64,000 nucleotides of DNA, from the NCBI GenBank assembly GCA_029858255.1, contig JAOUFJ010000005.1:1-64000 (forward strand). Direction: 5' to 3'. A program made the position numbers and the translations under genes. This document shows, piece by piece, positions 1 through 11,675 of this stretch. The notes beneath the pieces are model-generated. The model saw only the letters and a program-made list of their open reading frames with translations. It made no database searches and was not told the origin of the DNA. The first letter of the stretch is position 1, and every line of letters begins with the position of its first letter. This DNA is from a candidate division WOR-3 bacterium. GTDB taxonomy: Bacteria > Hydrothermota > Tepidihabitantia > SM23-42.

Positions 1-68
1 AACGATACCGTCTGAACCGCAAAACTCATGGAGATCAGTAACGCTAATAAACACATCACCTTCTGCAT
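1..68 (-). CDS. Secreted C25-type peptidase paralog, N-terminus only (cut by window edge)
   Basis: The ATG (complement of 66-68) follows an AAGGGGG ribosome site. The 22 visible codons encode a signal peptide beginning MQKVMCLLALL and ending in an SFA-like cleavage motif. The 68 bases match the start of the C25-like gene at 4419-4486 at 60 of 68 positions by my count, so this is very likely a third tandem copy of that family. The rest of the gene lies outside the window. The function beyond secretion is inferred from the paralog. Confidence 0.75.
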   Translation of the reverse strand, partial: MQKVMCLLALLISMSFAVQTVS

Positions 69-161
69 ACTACCCCCTTATAAAAGATGGTTGTTCGGTC
101 TACAGTATCGAAATACGTATCGTCCCACGGTTTGGTCTACCGAAACCGTATACCGATGAAT

Positions 162-697: not shown

Positions 698-3600
698 TTA
701 CTTGAGTAGCACGGTCTTCTGTACATCCTGGTAGTCATCGGTGTCGAGACGGACAAAATAAACACCAGCCGGCACCTTACGGCCCAGATCATCACAACCA
801 TCCCACTGCACCGTATAATAACCCGCCGCCTGCATACCATCGGCAAAAGTCCGCACTAAACGACCCGCCGCATCATACATCACCAGCTCAACCACCGCCT
901 CACGCGCCAACTGATAACGAATACTCATCACCCGCAACACCGGATTCGGATAGACCGCAGCTAACGCCGTCCGTAAAGGCACACCCGCTAACTCCATACC
1001 TTCCTCAACACCCGGCATCACCGTAATCCCAAAAAAGTGCATGATCGAATCCAATAACACCGCCCGCGTCGACGGCACCGCACCATCCACTAACATCCCT
1101 AACTCAAACGACGTCCCAACCGTCCGATACGTACCCGCATCATTGGCCACCCCACAATTGTAGTTGTTGTTACCATCCCGGAAAACCAGAAAACCACTAC
1201 CCGTCGGATTGATATGATCCATCCAGTTGTTCTCACCCGCATAATTGAAATTCATCCCGGCCGTAAAAGTACCCGCCTCACCAAGCACCGGCCCCATATC
1301 ATCACTACCATCCGAAATCGCACTGATACCAAACAACGGACAGAAATTATAACCACCACCCAGCGGATCATAATACCAAACATCACCACCCTCAAGATAC
1401 ATCCGACCACCCTGAGTCTGGAGATAATTCACTAACGCGGCCGCCTCGGCACTGCCGCTGTTGATCACAAAATTGCTGGCATAAATACCAACACAAACAA
1501 AAACCGACTGGTATAAGATCAAATCCGGCGCCAACGACCCACCAATATCACCGGTATAACCCAAACCATCCAGGATCGAATACATGTTCTGACCCGGGGT
1601 CGGCGTCGGATCCGGATTCCAAATGTAGTAATGCTTCTTACCGATCACCAAACTGAACTCCAGGGTGTCAACATAAACCCCCGAAGTGATGACGACCTGA
1701 AAATCAGCCGCGGTCCCGATCGGCGTCAAACTGTCCGCCGTGATCGTATACGGATCCGCACTGTTGTTCGAAGTATCCCCCGGCGCAACATCGTCAAAGA
1801 TACCGACATTGTCATTTATCGTGACAAAACCTGAGGTTGTCATTAGCAGAGAAGTAACGTTGCTGGCAGCTGCGCCACCTTCGTTCTCGATGGTCACGAC
1901 AATGTCGACCGTTTCACCCGGATCCACTATCCCGTTGCCGCCATCGATGACCGTGGCACTCTGATAGGTCAAAACCGGCGCGTAGACCGTGACCGCCGGG
2001 TATGAAGTGAACATACTGTCATTGGTGTCACAGAAGTTTAGTGTGAAGTTGATCGTGTGGCCATTCGGGCAGCATGGAATAATACTGAAGTTGTAGTAAG
2101 GATTCGAGAGTATCGAATCATCCTGCGCAATATTGCCATACCAGCTCGAATCGGTTGTCAGAACAGCGCACGTATCGGAGACTTCGAGCATGCCGTAAAC
2201 GCTCTGGGCAGTACCGATGCCTACATTCTTCGCCCAGATGCCTAAGTCAATCGTTTCTCCGGGATTGACAATACCGTCGCCATTTCCACCTGTCGCGTCG
2301 TCAACTATACTTCCGATATATGTCACATAAGGATAAGTACTTGATACGATCGGGACATCTGCAGCATAGCGATAATGGTTTGCCTTTGTTACCGTGACGA
2401 TCATTGTATTTCCAGGATTCTGAGAAGGAATGGTGATCGCTTGTGGTGTGCCGGTTCCTTCCTCGACCGCGATGATCTCGCCGTTTACTGTCAGGGCGAT
2501 TACTGAACTATCATCTGCCGTCACGGTGAAGGATGTGACACCTCCTGCCAGCGTAGGTGCATGAGCGACCGTCAGGTTTTGTGGTATTTCGGAGTAGAGG
2601 ACGGAGAAGGCGTCGCCGTGGTGGTGGAAGAGATGGTAAGTGACGGTTTTAGAACTGGTGTTGTAGGGCCAGTTCGACTGCTGGAGGAAGTATTTACCCG
2701 AGGTCATGGCCATGCAAGGCAACAGGTCAGGCTGTCCGATCGGAATCTGCGGACCCATCACCGGATACGCCGGCATGAAATCAGGCCAGAGACAATCATA
2801 CGAGCCCCAAACATAGGTATCATTGACAAATGAATACGAGATCTCACTCGCCGCGTTCAAACCCATCGCACCATACTGAATCCTGTGAAACTTCTCGGTG
2901 AAACACTCGCTCGACCAGATATATTTGCCGGTCAAACAGTTGCTCGAATTGACAAACGTGTACATCGTGTTGGTCAAACTGCTGAGATTGGAATTCGTAT
3001 ACGACGGCTCACCCCAACCGGTCTCCATACCATGATCACGATGCTGCAGCAGGAAACAACCCGAATTGATCGCATTGGTGATACCGGTCGCCGAACCATT
3101 ATTCCACCAGGAAGCATCATAAGGATTGGTGTCCGGGATATAACCCAAACCAGCCGTGCCAAAATAGGCAACGATCATATAGGTGTTGGAATTCGATGAC
3201 CAGGGACCACCAACCGTCGGCGTACCCAGATAGACCGCGTACTGCCGGGCCGGATCCTTGCCCTGCTCATTGATAAAATAACCACGAATGATCTCACCGC
3301 AAAGCTGGAACCAACGTTCGGTCTGCCAGCCAACCGCCATCAAGGGATTGTTGTAGAAGTTGGCCGCAGTGTAAGGTTGACGCTCGTAGCTCAAAAACTT
3401 GTTGATCATCGTGCTCAACTGCGACTCGGATTGCGCACAGATCCGGGCATGATGCATGTCCGGCATATGATCGCTGTTGACATCCGCATACATGTTGTCC
3501 GAAGCAACCCCGCTTCCGTACATTTGCGTGGTGATGCCATACAGGTCGCCGGACGAAGGATAATCAGATAAGAGCAGGAAAGCCGCCGGCGCCGGATCCC

Positions 3601-4486
3601 AGGTCGCATAAGCAGTGTTCAGAAAACTTTCGATCGCACTCGCCGAACTGCCACCGACCTCGGTCAAGGTAAACACCTCGCAACTGATCCCCTGCAACTT
3701 ACGCCAGGCCTTGATCGTATCTGCCCAAGCCTCAAAGACCGGATCATCCGGGATAATGATCACATACTCCCAACCATCCCGGGCATTCACTCGCTCCGGC
3801 GCATAAAAATCAATCGGCGGCAATGACGCATAATTCAATAGATGACCCTGCAAGATCGGCTCCCAAAACCGACTGCGTAAACGATCCTCACCAAACCGAC
3901 CATTACCACCAACAAAATCAAGGCGAAAACGCAAATCCTTGTATACCACTAACTCCTTAGTCACCGGATTGTACTGAAACGGCGTCACATTCATGATCAC
4001 CACATCAACGCCACGGATCTGCATCGGCTCACTGACCAAGACCGGCGAGGCCGGGAAATAAGCATCCCGACCGTAAACCGCTAAATCCTTCTCATAACGC
4101 AACGGCTTATCATCGGTCTCCAAAGGAATATTCGGCGCCGGCAAGACCTCAACTCCATGGTAAACCTCGGTCCGATAATCCAATAACACAACCTCAGCCC
4201 GCGCACCCTGCGGGATCGCGACATAACGCGTCGCACCACCCAAACTGGGCGCCCCCGCCTGAGGAATATAAACCGAAGCCAAACCATAACTCTGCATCGG
4301 CACCCCATCAAGCTCCATATCCTCGATCAACATCTCATGAAGACTGAAAACAATCTCCAACCCAGCCCGCGTCTCAGACACCACGTTGAACTGAGGATAC
4401 TCACCCCAACTACCCTCAAACGATACCGTCTGAACCGCCATAGCCATGGAGATCAATAAAACTAATGAACACATCACCTTCTGCAT
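698..4486 (-). CDS. Secreted C25 (gingipain-like) cysteine peptidase with C-terminal sorting-type domain
   Basis: 1262 aa. The ATG at 4486 is preferred over an upstream in-frame start (4555) because AAGGAGG precedes it and it opens a signal peptide (cleavage near AMA, residue 17). Residues about 20-230 look like a C25 propeptide. The catalytic region has a nucleophile-elbow-like LLLSDYPSSG segment, then HRDHG (His485) and SSNCLTG (Cys517). The 32-residue His-Cys spacing is like that of gingipains. After it come Ig-like repeats with NGIVDPGET motifs, and the last about 85 residues form a FlgD-like / type A sorting domain (YPNP, YDAAGRLVR, PAGVYFVRL, ending KTVLLK). Likely role: extracellular protein degradation. 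Base composition changes sharply inside the gene (see findings). Cleavage specificity cannot be told. Confidence 0.85.
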   Translation of the reverse strand: MQKVMCSLVLLISMAMAVQTVSFEGSWGEYPQFNVVSETRAGLEIVFSLHEMLIEDMELDGVPMQSYGLASVYIPQAGAPSLGGATRYVAIPQGARAEVVLLDYRTEVYHGVEVLPAPNIPLETDDKPLRYEKDLAVYGRDAYFPASPVLVSEPMQIRGVDVVIMNVTPFQYNPVTKELVVYKDLRFRLDFVGGNGRFGEDRLRSRFWEPILQGHLLNYASLPPIDFYAPERVNARDGWEYVIIIPDDPVFEAWADTIKAWRKLQGISCEVFTLTEVGGSSASAIESFLNTAYATWDPAPAAFLLLSDYPSSGDLYGITTQMYGSGVASDNMYADVNSDHMPDMHHARICAQSESQLSTMINKFLSYERQPYTAANFYNNPLMAVGWQTERWFQLCGEIIRGYFINEQGKDPARQYAVYLGTPTVGGPWSSNSNTYMIVAYFGTAGLGYIPDTNPYDASWWNNGSATGITNAINSGCFLLQHRDHGMETGWGEPSYTNSNLSSLTNTMYTFVNSSNCLTGKYIWSSECFTEKFHRIQYGAMGLNAASEISYSFVNDTYVWGSYDCLWPDFMPAYPVMGPQIPIGQPDLLPCMAMTSGKYFLQQSNWPYNTSSKTVTYHLFHHHGDAFSVLYSEIPQNLTVAHAPTLAGGVTSFTVTADDSSVIALTVNGEIIAVEEGTGTPQAITIPSQNPGNTMIVTVTKANHYRYAADVPIVSSTYPYVTYIGSIVDDATGGNGDGIVNPGETIDLGIWAKNVGIGTAQSVYGMLEVSDTCAVLTTDSSWYGNIAQDDSILSNPYYNFSIIPCCPNGHTINFTLNFCDTNDSMFTSYPAVTVYAPVLTYQSATVIDGGNGIVDPGETVDIVVTIENEGGAAASNVTSLLMTTSGFVTINDNVGIFDDVAPGDTSNNSADPYTITADSLTPIGTAADFQVVITSGVYVDTLEFSLVIGKKHYYIWNPDPTPTPGQNMYSILDGLGYTGDIGGSLAPDLILYQSVFVCVGIYASNFVINSGSAEAAALVNYLQTQGGRMYLEGGDVWYYDPLGGGYNFCPLFGISAISDGSDDMGPVLGEAGTFTAGMNFNYAGENNWMDHINPTGSGFLVFRDGNNNYNCGVANDAGTYRTVGTSFELGMLVDGAVPSTRAVLLDSIMHFFGITVMPGVEEGMELAGVPLRTALAAVYPNPVLRVMSIRYQLAREAVVELVMYDAAGRLVRTFADGMQAAGYYTVQWDGCDDLGRKVPAGVYFVRLDTDDYQDVQKTVLLK

Positions 4487-4514
4487 CTTACCTCCTTGGA
4501 AAAGATGGTAATTG

Positions 4515-4570
4515 GGTTGGGGTTTGGACGCTAGAAACGATATGGAGTCCAGCATCCTAACCCTGACCCT
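4515..4570. repeat. Inverted repeat of the peptidase-island family, copy b
   Basis: GGGTTGGGGTTTGGACGCTAGA faces TCCAGCATCCTAACCCTGACCC, an imperfect palindrome of about 22 bp arms filling the gap between the two C25-like genes. Confidence 0.7.
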
Positions 4571-4584
4571 CAGACCATTAGTTG

Positions 4585-7500
4585 TTATTTCAAAAGAACT
4601 GTCTTCTGCACGCTCTGATAATTTTCGGCAGAGAATTTAATAAAATACACACCGGCCGGCACCTTGCGACCACGGTCATCAAAACCATGCCAGTTGACCG
4701 TGTAATAACCAGGCTCTCTGGATCCGTCGGCCAGCGTTGAAATCAAACGGCCTGCAGCATCATAAACGCGTAAACTTATATTACCCTGCGAAGCGACCTG
4801 GTAGGAAATCGACATGCTTCTCATGAACGGGTTTGGATGAAGCGTCATCATCTGTGTGCGGGTAGGTAAAATCCCTGATTTGCCGTATTCTTCGACTCCG
4901 GGTGTCGGTGCTATCGTCGTGTACAGTATCGCGAATGCGTCGGTGATCTCTACGGCCAGACTATCATAGTTGTTGTTGTAATTGTACTGAATACCTACTG
5001 TCTGCGGTTCATTTTCGATGCCTATGGTGACACTCGTAGATAGTTGCAGAGCGGTCAGGTACTGCACCAGTATTTCACCGTCTCCAGTCGGCGTCGGATT
5101 ATACACAGGATCGTACAGGATTATCTCGAAGGTCTCGTGGTGGCCGAGTGTTGGGTAATGCTCGATCATGTAGAATTCGACGATGAATCTGTGGTTTGCC
5201 GCGTCGTAGTAATAATAGATGTCGCCCGGCTGTCCTGTCGTGCCCGGTTCCAGATAATCCCAGATGCCCGCGATCATTGACGGCGGACCATCGATGTTGG
5301 GAATACTGGTGTTTGAGAAATCATAGGAATCTGTCGAATCCATGGAGATCCATCCGTTTGAGCATATCGATATCCGGTTGTAGTCATTTCCGTAGAAACG
5401 GAAAGTGAAAGGAAGATCAACGACAGCAGTCTGATTGCGGATCAGATCAAGTGAGACACCGGCGTTCGCAGTCTGTGTTGAGTCGATCGCAAACCAGCTG
5501 TAGGCAGGTGATTGGGCATGCGGACCGCCTGAATAGAACGCGTAGTAATAGTTCGTGTCGGTTGGCACAGAGCGACCGACGCGTATAGAAAAATCAAAGG
5601 TATCTGCGCATACACCAGCCTGAACGGCAACCGTGAAATTAACCAGTGTACCAAACGGAATACTGCTGGCGGCATAGACCGTGAACGGATCCGAACTGTT
5701 GGATCCGGTATTGCCGATGCCAATCGTGCCAAAACTGCCGCTATTGTCGGTAATACTGATACCTGACGAACTACTGCTTAGTGTCGCAGTCACATTTTCC
5801 GCATCCGCGCCACCTTCATTCAGTACCGTCACTACAAGGTCAGCGGTTTCGCTCGGGTCGAGAATGCCGTTGTTCCATGCACCACCTACCACACTCACGG
5901 ATTGGTAAGTCAACATCGGGGCGTAAACCGTGAATGAGGGGTTGTACGTCCATGTGCTGTCATTAGTATCATGTATTTCAAGGGCGCACTCTATTGTGTA
6001 GCCATTCGCGCAGTTATTCGCTATCGTGAATGAATAGTCCGGCGTTGAGCGGGCAGAATCGAATTCGGCAATCGTGCCATACCAGCTTGAATCGGCCGTT
6101 ATGTTGATATACGGGTCAGAGCTGTTCAGTAAACCCTGGACTGACTGAAGGGTCTGGGGTCCCATATTCTTTAGATAAACGCCGTAGCCGATCGTCTCGC
6201 CTGGGTTTATCTGGCCATTACTTCCGGCACCAGTAAGTAGTGTGGAAGCAACAGTGGGAAATCCGTAACTTGTCGGTACAACCGGGAGGTCAGCTTCATA
6301 ACGATAGTAGTTGAATTTTGTTATGGTAACCTTTACCACAGAACCCGCAGGCTGAGACGCGATGGAAATGTTGACTGGCGCGCCAGTTCCTTCGGCCACG
6401 CCAATGATCTCGCCATCCACGGTCAACGCGATTATCGCACTGTCATCAGCCGTCACCTGAAAACTCGTCGCGGATGTGAGTATTCTTGGTGCATGGCTGA
6501 CCGCAAGTGAAGTTGGGATCTCGGAATAAATCACATTAAAGGCGTCTCCATTATGATGGAACAGGTGGTAAGTGATCGTCTTCACCGATGGGCTCGAGGG
6601 CCAGTTTGACTGCTGCAAGAAGTATTTGCCCGAGGTCATTGCCATGCAAGGCCTCAGATTACTATAGCCCAGCACCTCGGTTCCGTACAACGGATAAGCC
6701 GGCATGAATTGAGGCCACATTGCATCGTACGAACCCCACACATAAGTGTCATTGACAAAAGAATAGCTCACTTCGGTAGCCGCATTGAGCCCAAGCGCGC
6801 CATGCTCCATGCGATGGAATGCTTCAGCAAAGCACGGGTTCGGTATCGTATAATTACCAGTGCAGCAATTGCTCGAATTAACGAATACATACATGTCATT
6901 GGTCAGTCCGCTAAGGTGACTAACGCCGTAATCCGGTTCACCCCAACCATACTCATAGCCATGGTCGCGGTGCTGCAGCAGGAATGCACCTGAATTGATC
7001 GCTGCGTTTATGCCGGGTGCCGAGCCGCCGCTCCACCAGTTGGCATCATATGGGTTGTACGTAGCAGGCAGCCAGCCGAGGTTATAGAAATAGCTTACCA
7101 CGGTTCCCGTATTGGCGGCGGTTGACCAGGGTCCACCGACAACGGGCGTACCTGAATAAATTGCATACTCGCGCACCGGGTTTTTGCCCAGTCCATTGAT
7201 CATAAATCCGCGCACTACCTCGCTGCATAGTTGGAACCACCGTTCGGTTTGCCAACCACACGCCATTAAGGGCTCGTCATAGAAATTCGCCGCGGTGTAG
7301 GGGTTACGTTCGTAACTCAGGAATTTATTGATCATCGTGCTCAGATGCGTTTCGTTCTGTGCGGTGATACGTGCGTGATGCATATCTGGCAAGTGATTAC
7401 CGTCGACGTCAGCATAAATGTTGTCAGAAGCGCAGGGACCGGGGTAGCCAGTATACATAGGCGCCAGTATGCCGTACGTTTCACCCGAACTGGGATAGTC

Positions 7501-8424
7501 AGATAGCAGTAAGAAAGCGACCGGTGCCGGGTTCCAAGTAGCGTACGCTGTGTTCAAGAAACTCTCGATCGCTGTAGTAGAACTGCCGCCTACTTCAGTA
7601 AGAGTGAATACTTCGCATGAAATGCCCTGCTGCTTGCGGAACAACTTGATAGTATCTGCCCATGCCTCAAATACCGGATCGTCCGGTACGATTATTATAT
7701 ATTCCCAGCCGTCGCGCGCATTGACTCGTTCTGGCGCGTAGAAATCGATCTTGGGCAGGGAACCGTAATTTATCAAGTGCCCCTGGAGGAGAGGTTCCCA
7801 GAAGCGACTGCGCAAGCGGTCATCGCCAAAGTGTCCGTTACCTCCGATGAAATCAACCTTCACTCTGATGTCTTTGTAGACTATCAATTCTTTTGTTACG
7901 GGATTATACTGGAACGGCGTAATCCCTAACGATACTACATCCACACCTCTGATCTTTTCCGGCGGCGAGAGAATCACCGGTGATTCAGGATACAGAGCAT
8001 TACGGTTGTAGATCGTCGTATTCTTCTCATATCGAAGCGGTGAATCATCGTTTTCACTCGGGATGTTTGGCGCCGGTACAACATCGACATTGTGATAAAC
8101 TTCGGTACGAGAGTTGATGATGGTGAATTGCGCCCTGGCACCCTGGGGAATAGCGATATAGCGTGCCGTGCCCGACAGGTTCGGGGCGCCTTCATCATTG
8201 AAAAGGAAGATGCCGGGAACACCGAAGTTTTTCATCATCACACCGTCGACCTCGATGTCTTCGATCACCAATTCACGAATACTAAATACTATTTCCATGC
8301 CAGATGGATTCTCTGAGACAACGTTGAAAAGGGGGTACTGTCCCCAGTTGTCCTCAAATGCTACTACTTCAGCCGCAGTGGCTATGCTGACCATTGCAAC
8401 CATTAAGATCATAAAGCCTTTCAT
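4585..8424 (-). CDS. Secreted C25 (gingipain-like) cysteine peptidase, second full paralog
   Basis: 1279 aa from the ATG at 8424, preceded by AAGGAGG; an upstream in-frame start at 8487 has no ribosome site. Signal peptide of about 18 residues. The first about 900 residues align throughout with the neighbour at 698-4486, with catalytic HRDHG (His488) and SSNCCTG (Cys520) at the same 32-residue spacing. The region before the tail differs: instead of the neighbour's module it carries a 200-residue beta-rich segment (YYYAFYSGG, FTFRFYGNDY, ICSNGW, PTPTGDGEI) that closely matches the M28 peptidase at 8724-11675. It ends in the same FlgD-like domain (HPNPF, YDAAGRLIS, PAGVYFIKF, KTVLLK). Probably cotranscribed with the downstream paralog. 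Confidence 0.85.
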   Translation of the reverse strand: MKGFMILMVAMVSIATAAEVVAFEDNWGQYPLFNVVSENPSGMEIVFSIRELVIEDIEVDGVMMKNFGVPGIFLFNDEGAPNLSGTARYIAIPQGARAQFTIINSRTEVYHNVDVVPAPNIPSENDDSPLRYEKNTTIYNRNALYPESPVILSPPEKIRGVDVVSLGITPFQYNPVTKELIVYKDIRVKVDFIGGNGHFGDDRLRSRFWEPLLQGHLINYGSLPKIDFYAPERVNARDGWEYIIIVPDDPVFEAWADTIKLFRKQQGISCEVFTLTEVGGSSTTAIESFLNTAYATWNPAPVAFLLLSDYPSSGETYGILAPMYTGYPGPCASDNIYADVDGNHLPDMHHARITAQNETHLSTMINKFLSYERNPYTAANFYDEPLMACGWQTERWFQLCSEVVRGFMINGLGKNPVREYAIYSGTPVVGGPWSTAANTGTVVSYFYNLGWLPATYNPYDANWWSGGSAPGINAAINSGAFLLQHRDHGYEYGWGEPDYGVSHLSGLTNDMYVFVNSSNCCTGNYTIPNPCFAEAFHRMEHGALGLNAATEVSYSFVNDTYVWGSYDAMWPQFMPAYPLYGTEVLGYSNLRPCMAMTSGKYFLQQSNWPSSPSVKTITYHLFHHNGDAFNVIYSEIPTSLAVSHAPRILTSATSFQVTADDSAIIALTVDGEIIGVAEGTGAPVNISIASQPAGSVVKVTITKFNYYRYEADLPVVPTSYGFPTVASTLLTGAGSNGQINPGETIGYGVYLKNMGPQTLQSVQGLLNSSDPYINITADSSWYGTIAEFDSARSTPDYSFTIANNCANGYTIECALEIHDTNDSTWTYNPSFTVYAPMLTYQSVSVVGGAWNNGILDPSETADLVVTVLNEGGADAENVTATLSSSSSGISITDNSGSFGTIGIGNTGSNSSDPFTVYAASSIPFGTLVNFTVAVQAGVCADTFDFSIRVGRSVPTDTNYYYAFYSGGPHAQSPAYSWFAIDSTQTANAGVSLDLIRNQTAVVDLPFTFRFYGNDYNRISICSNGWISMDSTDSYDFSNTSIPNIDGPPSMIAGIWDYLEPGTTGQPGDIYYYYDAANHRFIVEFYMIEHYPTLGHHETFEIILYDPVYNPTPTGDGEILVQYLTALQLSTSVTIGIENEPQTVGIQYNYNNNYDSLAVEITDAFAILYTTIAPTPGVEEYGKSGILPTRTQMMTLHPNPFMRSMSISYQVASQGNISLRVYDAAGRLISTLADGSREPGYYTVNWHGFDDRGRKVPAGVYFIKFSAENYQSVQKTVLLK

Positions 8425-8451
8425 CAAACCTCCTTCAAACAATATAGTTAT

Positions 8452-8504
8452 TGGGTTAAGGTTGGGATGCTGGAGAAAAATCCACATCCCAAATCCTCAG
8501 CCCA
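8452..8504. repeat. Inverted repeat of the peptidase-island family, copy c
   Basis: TGGGTTAAGGTTGGGATGCTGG opposes CCACATCCCAAATCCTCAGCCCA. It lies in the 5' leader of the C25-like gene rather than after it, which argues against a simple terminator role. Confidence 0.65.
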
Positions 8505-8593
8505 TCTCTCTTTTAATAAAATACCGTATTCTGATTACATTCTGGCTGTGCAGCCCTCGCTAGAACATACCTCTTAAGTCTATTTAATCTATT

Positions 8594-8621
8594 ATTCTAC
8601 TTCCTCATTCTGATTTGTCAA
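8594..8621 (-). promoter_or_regulatory. Promoter of the C25-like pair
   Basis: Minus strand TTGACA (8616-8621), 16 bp, TAGAAT (8594-8599). The leader to the ATG at 8424 is about 165 nt and contains inverted repeat c. Confidence 0.7.
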
Positions 8622-8641
8622 CACGTAAAAATATGGTTAGC

Positions 8642-8710
8642 GGGTTGGGGTTGAGAGGCTAGACGCTAACAACGGATATTTTGTATATAGTCCCAGCATC
8701 CCAACCCTTA
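8642..8710. repeat. Inverted repeat of the peptidase-island family, copy d
   Basis: GGGTTGGGGTTGAGAGGCTAGA faces CCCAGCATCCCAACCC just beyond the stop of the M28 gene. Confidence 0.65.
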
Positions 8711-8723
8711 GAACCATTTATTA

Positions 8724-11675
8724 TTATCTCAAAAGCACGGCCTTCTTGACCTGGCGGGAATCAGCGGTCTCCAACCGGACAAAGTAGACACCGGCCGGCA
8801 CCCGACGACCCTGCGCATCCAGACCACGCCAAACCACCGACGCGGGCTGCCCAACCACCGACAACTCGTCCGATAAATCACAAACCAACCGACCCGATAT
8901 ATCATAAACACTCAACCGACCACCAACCATACCCGCCGCTAACACATAATCAATCCGCAATAGACCAGTAAATGGATTCGGCACCACCTGCGCTAAGGAC
9001 GTCCGCCAGACAACACCCGCCGACTTACCGTACTCCTCAACCCCTAAATAATCCGGCGGATAGGTCGTATACCGCACCGCAAACGAATCGGTCACCGCCC
9101 AAGCCCAGGCATGATACACCCCATCATAATAATACTCCAAACCAACCGTCTCAGCCGCATTCTCTAAACCAAAAGTCGCCCCAGGCTGCGCTAAACCAGT
9201 CAAATAATACACCATTACCTCACCATCACCAGTCGGCGTCGGATAATACAAAGGATCCAATAAAACCATCTGAAAGGTCTCCCGATCCCCAGTCGCCCCA
9301 TAATGCGCCACATCATAAAACTCAACCATCCAACGATGATTCACATCATCATAATACTGATAAATATCACCCGCTAACGACGGATCCAAATCATCCCAAA
9401 ACCCAGCCACCATCGCCCGCGGACCACCACTCGCCGGAATCCCCGTATTCGCACCAAACCGATAGGTCGAACTGCCTAACTCCAAAAACCCGTTCGAACA
9501 TATCCCCACCGAACCGTAATCCGTCCCATAATACCGGAAGGTAAACGGCAATGTCACCGTCACCGTATCCGCATCCTCATTCGTAATCTCCGAAACGATC
9601 ACCCCAGGCCCCGGCGGCGCTAAACCTAACCACGCAAACTCCGGCGCATACTCCTGCAAACCACCCGAATAATACGCATAATAATAACCCGTATCCGACG
9701 GCACCGGCTCACCAATCGCTAACTCAAACGGCAACGTATCCACATACAAACCCGCCACCACCACTAAATCACAATCCACCAACATCCCATACGGCGCACT
9801 CACACCCGCCGTCACCGTAAACGGATCCGAACTGTTGGCTATCGTATCACCGATTGTGATCTGACCGAAATTGCCTGAGTTATCAACTATCGTGATGTGC
9901 GAGGAATTGCTCATCAGGGTTGTACTGACATTCTGTGCAGGCGCGGCACCTCCATTGGTGAGTGTGATGACGAGATCCGCTGTTTCACCGGGTTCGAGTA
10001 TACCGTTGCCATTGATGATCGTATATTCGCAAAAAGTGATACTGGGCAGAGGGTTAATGAAGACCTGAAGCGAGTAATCCCAATTGCCAGTGTTACATGC
10101 TACACTAAGATCAAAGTCCGTTTCGTATCCATTGGGTACCGAGCCCGCTGCTGACATCTTGAATGACATCTCGACGGTCTCTTGCGAAAGAACGTTTCCT
10201 ATATAACAGCTGTCTTCCTGTAGAGTCACATAAGGACTGGTGTTGTTGATAAGCCCATAGGTATTCTTGGCCGTATCAACACCCATGTTGTAGATCTGAA
10301 TGACCAGATCGACTTCCTCACCGCTCTCCCACAGCCCGTTTCCATTACCGCCCGGTGCAGTATCGACGATCCAGTAGTCAGGCATCGTCAAGTATGCCGT
10401 TGCCAGGGGACGGGCCATCAGTGAAAGAGCTGCCACCTGAGCTTTTACTACTTCCGTACAGAAAGCGTTGTTGTTGTAACCAGCGCCGATCGTATCACCG
10501 GGTTCGTGATAATAAGGATTTGCCAGCGGGCTGTCTTCGATGTTACATACCGCAAGATATCCGTTCTGCCAGAATGGATGGTGGTCAGAGTTTGCGGCAG
10601 AAGTGACCATTCTTTTCCTGGTGAGCAGGGTAGTATAAGAATCGGCCGCCGCAATGATGAAATCTGCAAATGGCTCGCACGGCGGGTTGGAGATTTTCGC
10701 AATAACTTCTAAACTCTCAGGTTGAGCATTAACATAGGCGATCATGTCGGCATTTAGAACGCCTAGAATACTGTCACCCTGAGAACGGGCGAGTGAAGCG
10801 TAGTAATAGCTTCCATATAAGCCAAATTCTTCACCGGAGAAAGCTATGTACCTTATGGAATATTCGAACTGATAATCGCGCATGACACGCATTGCTTCAA
10901 TAACGCTGGCCGTGCCGCTCGCGTTGTCATCGGCACCTGGCGCAATGTTCGGCGAAAGGTAGGATGTCGCATCGAAATGTCCGCATATTACAGGGTAAAT
11001 GCTGTCCGGGTACAATGTTCCGGTTTTTACACCGACCACGTTCGGCGCGTGTCCGGTTGTGTGGTACTGAAAGTAAACAGAATCACATCCGTAGTCGCTG
11101 AATTTGCTGGCAATGTAATCGGCAGCGGCATCGCATGAGTCATGGGTCGAGTATCTGGTGACAAAATCCTGTAAACGTTGGACGACACTGAGAACACTAT
11201 CGGGATCGACCTGGTCGACGATCGTCTGCACAAGTGGGTTGTAGTAGAAACTCGTTGCCCGCTGGCCGCTCCTGACGATCGGCGTGAACATCAACCGGCT
11301 GATTTCCACTTTTTCCCTTATTAGTGCTTCCAGCATATCCGGCTTCATTTTGAGCAGATGCACCGAACCGTCGGTCATCAGAATTTCTCCATAGTCTGTT
11401 AGATCAAGGCGCTCGTCGGTTTTGTGTACAAGGTAATATCTTCCTTCCTCGGGGTCCTTTTCGATTATGGAGAATGAATATTGACGAAGTATATCGAGTT
11501 CATTATCGTCCACGATCAAGATAGCGGTATTGTCGAGTTCGGCGATCGGTCTCAGGCTATTTTCAAAAAGCGGGTCCAGTCTCTGCGCGTCCAGGTCGAC
11601 CTTGACGAGATAGTCGGCTGCAAATGCTGCCGTCATGAATAGAAACCATACAATAAACAATTTTCTAATTAACAT
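8724..11675 (-). CDS. Secreted M28 zinc aminopeptidase-like protein with C-terminal sorting-type domain
   Basis: 983 aa. ATG preceded by AGGAGG; signal peptide ending AFA (about residue 18). The M28 peptidase core has CGHFDAT (zinc His233), PGADDNASGT (Asp249), FSGEEFGLYG (catalytic and zinc Glu pair), NADM and SDHHPF. It is followed by two Ig-like repeats with GNGLWESGE and GNGILEPGET motifs, then the beta-rich module shared with the C25-like protein at 4585-8424 (YYYAYYSGG, FTFRYYGTDY, ICSNGF, PTPTGDGEV), and a FlgD-like tail (VPNPF, YDISGRLV, PAGVYFVRL). Family members release N-terminal amino acids or dipeptides. The 3' part (roughly 8724-9835) has extreme strand asymmetry compared with the 5' part. 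Confidence 0.88.
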   Translation of the reverse strand: MLIRKLFIVWFLFMTAAFAADYLVKVDLDAQRLDPLFENSLRPIAELDNTAILIVDDNELDILRQYSFSIIEKDPEEGRYYLVHKTDERLDLTDYGEILMTDGSVHLLKMKPDMLEALIREKVEISRLMFTPIVRSGQRATSFYYNPLVQTIVDQVDPDSVLSVVQRLQDFVTRYSTHDSCDAAADYIASKFSDYGCDSVYFQYHTTGHAPNVVGVKTGTLYPDSIYPVICGHFDATSYLSPNIAPGADDNASGTASVIEAMRVMRDYQFEYSIRYIAFSGEEFGLYGSYYYASLARSQGDSILGVLNADMIAYVNAQPESLEVIAKISNPPCEPFADFIIAAADSYTTLLTRKRMVTSAANSDHHPFWQNGYLAVCNIEDSPLANPYYHEPGDTIGAGYNNNAFCTEVVKAQVAALSLMARPLATAYLTMPDYWIVDTAPGGNGNGLWESGEEVDLVIQIYNMGVDTAKNTYGLINNTSPYVTLQEDSCYIGNVLSQETVEMSFKMSAAGSVPNGYETDFDLSVACNTGNWDYSLQVFINPLPSITFCEYTIINGNGILEPGETADLVITLTNGGAAPAQNVSTTLMSNSSHITIVDNSGNFGQITIGDTIANSSDPFTVTAGVSAPYGMLVDCDLVVVAGLYVDTLPFELAIGEPVPSDTGYYYAYYSGGLQEYAPEFAWLGLAPPGPGVIVSEITNEDADTVTVTLPFTFRYYGTDYGSVGICSNGFLELGSSTYRFGANTGIPASGGPRAMVAGFWDDLDPSLAGDIYQYYDDVNHRWMVEFYDVAHYGATGDRETFQMVLLDPLYYPTPTGDGEVMVYYLTGLAQPGATFGLENAAETVGLEYYYDGVYHAWAWAVTDSFAVRYTTYPPDYLGVEEYGKSAGVVWRTSLAQVVPNPFTGLLRIDYVLAAGMVGGRLSVYDISGRLVCDLSDELSVVGQPASVVWRGLDAQGRRVPAGVYFVRLETADSRQVKKAVLLR

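Follow-up and report, generated by a model that had tools for sequence, protein, structure and literature searches.

The first 11,675 positions of a 64,000-nucleotide stretch of DNA from a candidate division WOR-3 bacterium (contig JAOUFJ010000005.1, positions 1 to 64,000; the window in what follows) encode putatively secreted peptidases whose genes contain three discrete blocks, about 1-1.7 kb long, in which G/T-ending codons prevail. This codon dialect is common to C-terminal peptidase modules, to the genes of elongation factor Tu (tuf) and to IS256-type transposases of the order to which the bacterium belongs; the edges of the blocks coincide with jumps in identity to other genes, and the dialect is absent from single-copy neighbours and from ribosomal genes. 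The explanation that we favour, tentatively and with a confidence that comes close to an even chance, is that the blocks are duplicated coding tracts that are homogenised or exchanged by homologous recombination and thereby pushed toward G and T on the coding strand. The features concerned are listed below, with K3 denoting the fraction of G or T at third codon positions as read on the coding (minus) strand.

1..99, minus strand: start of an A-like paralog, truncated by the contig end, with 84% DNA identity to the start of gene A
698..4486, minus strand: gene A, encoding a gingipain-type C25 peptidase that has a propeptide, Ig-like domains and a sorting domain
701..1792, minus strand: G/T-ending block 2, which forms the C-terminal module of gene A; K3 0.74, rising to 0.85
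1793..2740, minus strand: part of gene A that separates the two blocks and is of ordinary composition; K3 0.45, inverse tail included
2576..2695, minus strand: inverse tail of block 1, rich in A/C-ending codons (codons 621-660); K3 7/20, then 1/20
2741..4486, minus strand: G/T-ending block 1, which spans the propeptide and C25 domain of gene A; K3 0.74, falling to 0.45 past the change point at 2740/2741
4585..8487, minus strand: gene B, a C25 paralog with propeptide and no block; K3 0.51
8724..11675, minus strand: gene C, an M28 peptidase with C-terminal sorting domain
8727..9833, minus strand: G/T-ending block 3, the C-terminal module of gene C; K3 0.88

The K3 of the three blocks (74–88%) compares with about 50% in ordinary genes, with 0.46–0.50 in four other genes of the window and with 0.51 in gene B. 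The original prediction had described the blocks as stretches of a plus strand very poor in G, and the base counts it quoted are exact (22 C and 5 G at 9121-9180, 9 C and 17 G at 10021-10080). The GC skew amounts to -0.32 (701-1792), -0.19 (2741-4486) and -0.41 (8727-9833), against +0.08, +0.015 (gene B, correctly named as free of skew) and +0.03 in intervening and control segments, but the coding signature is one of G plus T on the minus strand more than of a plus-strand shortage of G. Instead of a smooth skew, which had been named as a possible refutation, the sliding window and the change points reveal discrete blocks: beyond the first 11 kb the lowest skew of any 1.1-kb window is -0.107 (mean 0.056, sd 0.076). 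Change-point analysis of third positions places the edges at 1792/1793, 2740/2741 and 9833/9834, with best-split log-likelihood ratios of 88.4 (gene C) and 20.1 (gene A), compared with a maximum of 7.6 in 200 shuffles; the same analysis finds no change point in gene B or in the four other genes. The predicted abruptness of the switches holds at 9834, which is sharp, but not near 2741, where a gradient overshoots into a G/T-poor stretch (1/20 third positions G/T at 2576-2635). Block 1 itself is strongest at 3566-4486 (codons 24-330) and weaker from there to 2741, where A is depleted but not C. It reaches the likely start of gene A, an ATG at 4486 that is preceded by AAGGAGGT in a reading frame open up to 4555.

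An effect on synonymous positions had been predicted as well. Third positions are indeed shifted, also at conserved residues, which rules out amino-acid composition as the cause, but nonsynonymous positions are skewed too: at first and second positions, block 3 compared with gene B has 134 changes from A/C to G/T and 47 in the reverse direction (roughly 3:1), against about 70 and 78, respectively, in the upstream part of gene C. Base composition otherwise hardly moves, with a third-position G+C of 0.57 in the blocks against 0.55 in the background and an overall G+C of 0.52–0.53 against about 0.50.

The phenomenon is wider than originally described, since it extends across the order, includes tuf and comprises polar, G/T-poor tails. 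The dialect uses GCG, CCG, ACG, TCG/AGT, GGT, GTG/GTT, GAT, GAG, AAG, CAG, TAT, TGT and TTG/TTA, and this codon set is identical in the window blocks, in the blocks of the related bin65 chromosome and in tuf of bin77; C-terminal modules of C25/M28-type peptidases of congeners share it. Searches for a periodic G/T pattern also match lysine-rich frames in antisense, and all matches were therefore compared with the reading frames. When the genome of the window was scanned for G or T at every third base, the blocks, the first 40 EF-Tu codons at two contig ends and one lysine-rich gene in antisense were recovered, and in a 97% complete congener (G008) 167/167 matches fell inside tuf, the sole such gene. 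In nine genomes of families f1 and f2 of the order, K3 of tuf is 0.72–0.89, with most values near 0.84; it is 0.60–0.70 in f4 and f8, and 0.49–0.54 in f3, f5 and f7, lineages with a well assembled single tuf. A codon index built from the window blocks and applied to 684 open reading frames (ORFs) of the genus and family has a mean of -0.81 (sd 0.27). Its distribution is bimodal and without a continuum: values of +0.02 to +0.60 are reached by tuf and most module ORFs, three ORFs with a partial block have -0.27 to -0.20 over the full frame and +0.48 to +1.04 in the best stretch of 60 codons of each, and the next ORF after all tract-bearing ones reaches -0.41. The scores of the window blocks are not independent, because the index was made from them, while those of tuf and of the bin65 modules are.

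In five genomes of the order, the IS256-type transposases are likewise G/T-rich, at about 0.73–0.9 and up to 95% (L098, L187-L191); their G/T richness fades toward the gene end. Most IS110-type transposases of the order are ordinary, which contradicts the notion that all repeats are G/T-rich. One of them, in genome G030 (L230 1333-2280), also switches within the gene, being ordinary for the greater part and G/T-rich only over the final ~100 codons. In family f6 (L136, L138, L139), nusG and rplK beside tuf have a K3 of about 0.7–0.8, above that of tuf itself, which probably reflects an ordinary replication-strand skew of this family. For the dialect, replication-strand skew is ruled out, as tuf is biased on either strand and its flanking genes are normal.

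Comparison with other genes suggests that the block edges are recombination breakpoints, because identity jumps there. Between gene C and a gene at the end of contig C24 it rises from 63% before the edge at 9834 to 92% after it, while the proportion of differing third positions at shared residues falls from 62% to 3%. Compared with a bin65 gene, gene C is 49% identical before the edge, 85–93% inside the block and 64% over the final 100 codons. Between gene A and a bin65 gene whose N-terminal half differs, identity goes from 56% to 85% and then 91% at ~1793. Pieces of block 3 recur at contig ends of the same genome (C21, 99% over 116 bp; C24, 95% over 102 bp), and this identity of 95–99% exceeds the 85–93% to bin65, although within the genome short pieces only could be compared. 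Every match of at least 84% identity elsewhere in the genome sits at a contig end. Two contigs with different upstream genes both end in the same tuf start, which indicates that tuf is duplicated. Contig C29 (L217) begins with an almost exact copy of the gene A stop codon and 3' flank; given the A-like start at 1-99 of the window, C29 and the contig of the window (C5) are probably neighbours, with the gap between them filled by a near-identical tandem copy of gene A. Overall, the contig ends support at least two copies each of tuf, the A modules and the C modules. The scaffolds of bin65, bin77 and bin1061 have N gaps in or beside G/T tracts; in the simplest view, assemblies break at the tracts because these are repeats. 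At two loci (L089 7075-8691 and L092 8292-9770) such gaps join unrelated frames beside G/T-ending tracts, for example a YjeF_N domain with a secreted protein that has a sorting domain and FG-GAP repeats, and false fusion proteins would result from automatic annotation there.

These comparisons lend partial support to the patchwork origin and the gene conversion that the original prediction had offered as interpretations, beside a local mutation or selection process. The favoured explanation would combine the two as follows. Gene conversion, as the recombination process involved, would keep duplicated tracts alike, and C-terminal modules would be shuffled between peptidase genes. The bias may then arise since G/T-rich strands convert their partners more often, which would drive duplicated tracts toward G and T on one strand. 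That the bias tracks duplication is supported by the contig breaks, if partly by inference from them, and we infer that duplication rather than expression is the factor common to the affected genes. In tuf, gene conversion has been measured to proceed from a double-strand break via a RecA-coated 3' strand, with tracts limited by ~1.2 kb of homology (PMC5485169), and it recurs in 29 orders (PMC6053082). In vitro, the stability of RecA filaments is highest on TGG repeats and lowest on CCA repeats (PMC3763553). Given such differences in filament stability, efficient invasion would be expected of a G/T-rich coding strand and poor invasion of its complement, and we hypothesize that a RecA preference for TG-rich single strands might be the source of the direction. 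A more specific version, a keto-biased and strand-polar conversion drive with G/T-rich strands as the better donors, in which copy number alone would leave a codon signature that one genome suffices to reveal and the flip to A/C would lie beyond the usual initiation side, seems to us rather unlikely.

Several points weigh against the recombination of duplicated tracts. Copy number is deduced mostly from contig breaks, and both the conversion and its direction are putative. The IS256 copy of genome G019 lies inside a long contig and is the sole match in its genome; together with the ordinary IS110-type transposases, this means that the status of a mobile repeat is not sufficient. The conversion bias known in bacteria favors G+C, which is unchanged here. 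Finally, neither the inverse tails nor the connection with the coding strand is accounted for by the model.

Some of the tracts end in such a tail. In f1, tuf is ~84% G/T-ending until some 15–25 codons before the stop. Over the last 14 codons, 19/98 positions are G/T-ending in seven f1/f2 genes, against 52/98 in other families, the sole f2 tuf gene being an exception (9/14). K3 falls to 0.35–0.6 over the last 20 codons of the modules. In gene A, the flip is located at codons 620-660 inside the reading frame, and a bin65 gene flips at the homologous place. A general 3'-end effect is ruled out by 319 ordinary genes, in which K3 stays at 0.48–0.51 up to the stop.

The chief rival explanation is translational selection combined with module shuffling: the dialect would represent the preferred codons of the few most abundant proteins, and partial blocks would result from the splicing of modules into less expressed genes. 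In its favor, no protein is usually more abundant than EF-Tu, one specific set of codons recurs, and the synonymous divergence of tuf is slow. tRNAs with C34 exist for the G-ending codons, and compared with synonymous shuffles the tracts are depleted in TA across codons and in Shine-Dalgarno-like strings; besides such context effects no k-mer is dominant, so that a single repeated motif or Chi-like octamer can be discarded. However, rpsJ, rplC and rplD, directly 3' of tuf and co-oriented, have a K3 of ~0.45, and rpsL, rpsG, fusA (encoding EF-G), rpsM, rpsK and rpsD are ordinary as well (~0.5), as is the gene of RpoA. The bias is not graded through intermediate genes, the nonsynonymous sites of the modules share the 3:1 skew, and an IS256-type transposase, which is not expected to be highly expressed, has the same dialect. 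Bacteria usually prefer C- over T-ending codons for Phe, Tyr, Asp and His, and the dialect runs opposite to this preference. The 46 tRNA genes of G008, with anticodons G34, U34 and C34, amount to about one gene per anticodon; they form no special set, which excludes tRNA gene numbers as the cause, and they suggest that selection is weak. Taken together, the normal ribosomal proteins and EF-G, the replacement of C by T and the tRNA complement make ordinary translational selection unlikely.

Improbable, too, is strand-asymmetric mutation in place, by which the coding strand would be exposed as a single strand (in an R-loop, a D-loop or a resected end) and undergo C-to-T and A-to-G deamination, and exposure of the other strand past a switch would produce the inverse tail. 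The direction of change fits the deamination of one strand, and the strand flip at block ends as well as the nonsynonymous skew in weakly constrained modules agree with such a process. So does a strong neighbor dependence that is alike in tuf and the modules, where C is retained mainly before A (0.41 vs 0.07–0.17) and A mainly after T (0.25–0.29), although this effect is partly a general avoidance of TA across codons, which is weaker but also present in background genes. The substitutions argue otherwise. Among related tuf genes, G-T is the commonest third-position difference (21/49, and 46/97 at larger distance), so that G and T behave as equivalent and A and C as disfavored; such transversions, and the fact that four-fold sites after C carry G (0.53–0.89) and not T, are not produced by transitions alone. 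The co-transcribed ribosomal genes beside tuf are unaffected, by which mutation linked to transcription fails also as an explanation in its own right. The adenine-specific change of diversity-generating retroelements does not match, because C is lost as well as A; no search for a reverse transcriptase or template repeat was made.

Blocks acquired from a foreign organism or mobile replicon that uses G/T-ending codons in all of its genes, and recombined into local genes, would explain the mosaic structure and the transposases with the same dialect. This origin appears quite improbable, because no relative with genome-wide G/T-ending codons appeared among 41 relatives and because, in all genomes of the order that could be read, tuf combines the dialect with native neighbors, for which repeated import is no explanation. 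Least probable by far is an assembly artefact in which the mosaic genes are chimeras joined at repeats: such tracts are indeed a frequent end point of contigs and scaffold gaps, and C5, C24 and C21 might in principle exchange partners at their common piece of block 3, but the bin65 assembly has the same gene A edge with another N-terminal gene, tuf bears the dialect over its whole length between normal flanks in many assemblies, and joining cannot create the dialect itself, so that the chimera considered in the original prediction does not fit.

By their predicted C-terminal sorting domains (type A, TIGR04183; 33.4, 31.9 and 28.1 bits for A, B and C at a cut-off of 23), all three proteins qualify as putative type IX secretion substrates. 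More than 100 places in the genome are related to gene A, mostly to its C-terminal domain, and no near-identical copy of gene B was found in this genome. Further relatives of gene A are encoded on the WOR-3 chromosomes bin1061, bin65 and bin77, and such relatives place the host in candidate division WOR-3. Members of the C25 family also occur in genomes of Bacteroidales and Cloacimonadota (L029, L034, L035 and other loci). G/T-ending blocks are absent from the WOR-3 and Cloacimonadota C25 relatives that were checked (L023, L029, L033, L036).

Biased gene conversion in bacteria has been debated mainly in terms of G+C. If recombining duplicates are indeed the cause, a bias that is neutral in G+C, strand-specific and confined to duplicates would offer a natural experiment in which conversion bias can be told apart from mutation and translational selection; repeated, recombining genes would be detectable from their codon composition, and the breaking of assemblies of these uncultured bacteria in tuf and peptidase modules would be accounted for. 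If expression is the cause instead, the set of preferred codons would be unusual, with T over C and the ribosomal proteins exempt.

Among known systems, the concerted evolution of tufA and tufB in Salmonella and in 29 orders (PMC5485169; PMC6053082) resembles the present case in the duplication of tuf, the near-identical copies and the homology-limited tracts of ~1 kb, but no strand-specific composition is described there, whereas here an extreme G/T-ending dialect extends to peptidase modules. GC-biased gene conversion, a recombination-linked fixation bias, would look alike in acting on synonymous and nonsynonymous sites; the raised G+C of its tracts is not found here, where the bias is toward G and T on the coding strand and strand-specific. 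Codon selection for translation shares the extreme synonymous bias and the slow synonymous change in tuf but differs in the exempt ribosomal proteins, the T over C, the edges inside frames and the dialect in a transposase. The GT-rich islands of E. coli around Chi and RecA pairing sequences (PMC3763553) have similarly G/T-rich coding strands with TGG-like triplets; they were traced to ordinary codon usage, from which the tracts described here depart, and in few genes only. The peptidases agree with known gingipain-type C25 modular secreted peptidases in domain order and in their C-terminal sorting-domain matches; they differ in occurring in WOR-3 and in the distinct codon dialect of modules that are swapped between unrelated catalytic domains. 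A literature search, whose coverage largely left out subscription journals and preprints, returned no description of such a G/T bias. Concerted evolution by gene conversion is of a known kind, and what is new is a strand-specific G/T bias with almost no change in G+C that is common to tuf, secreted-peptidase modules and some transposases of one order.
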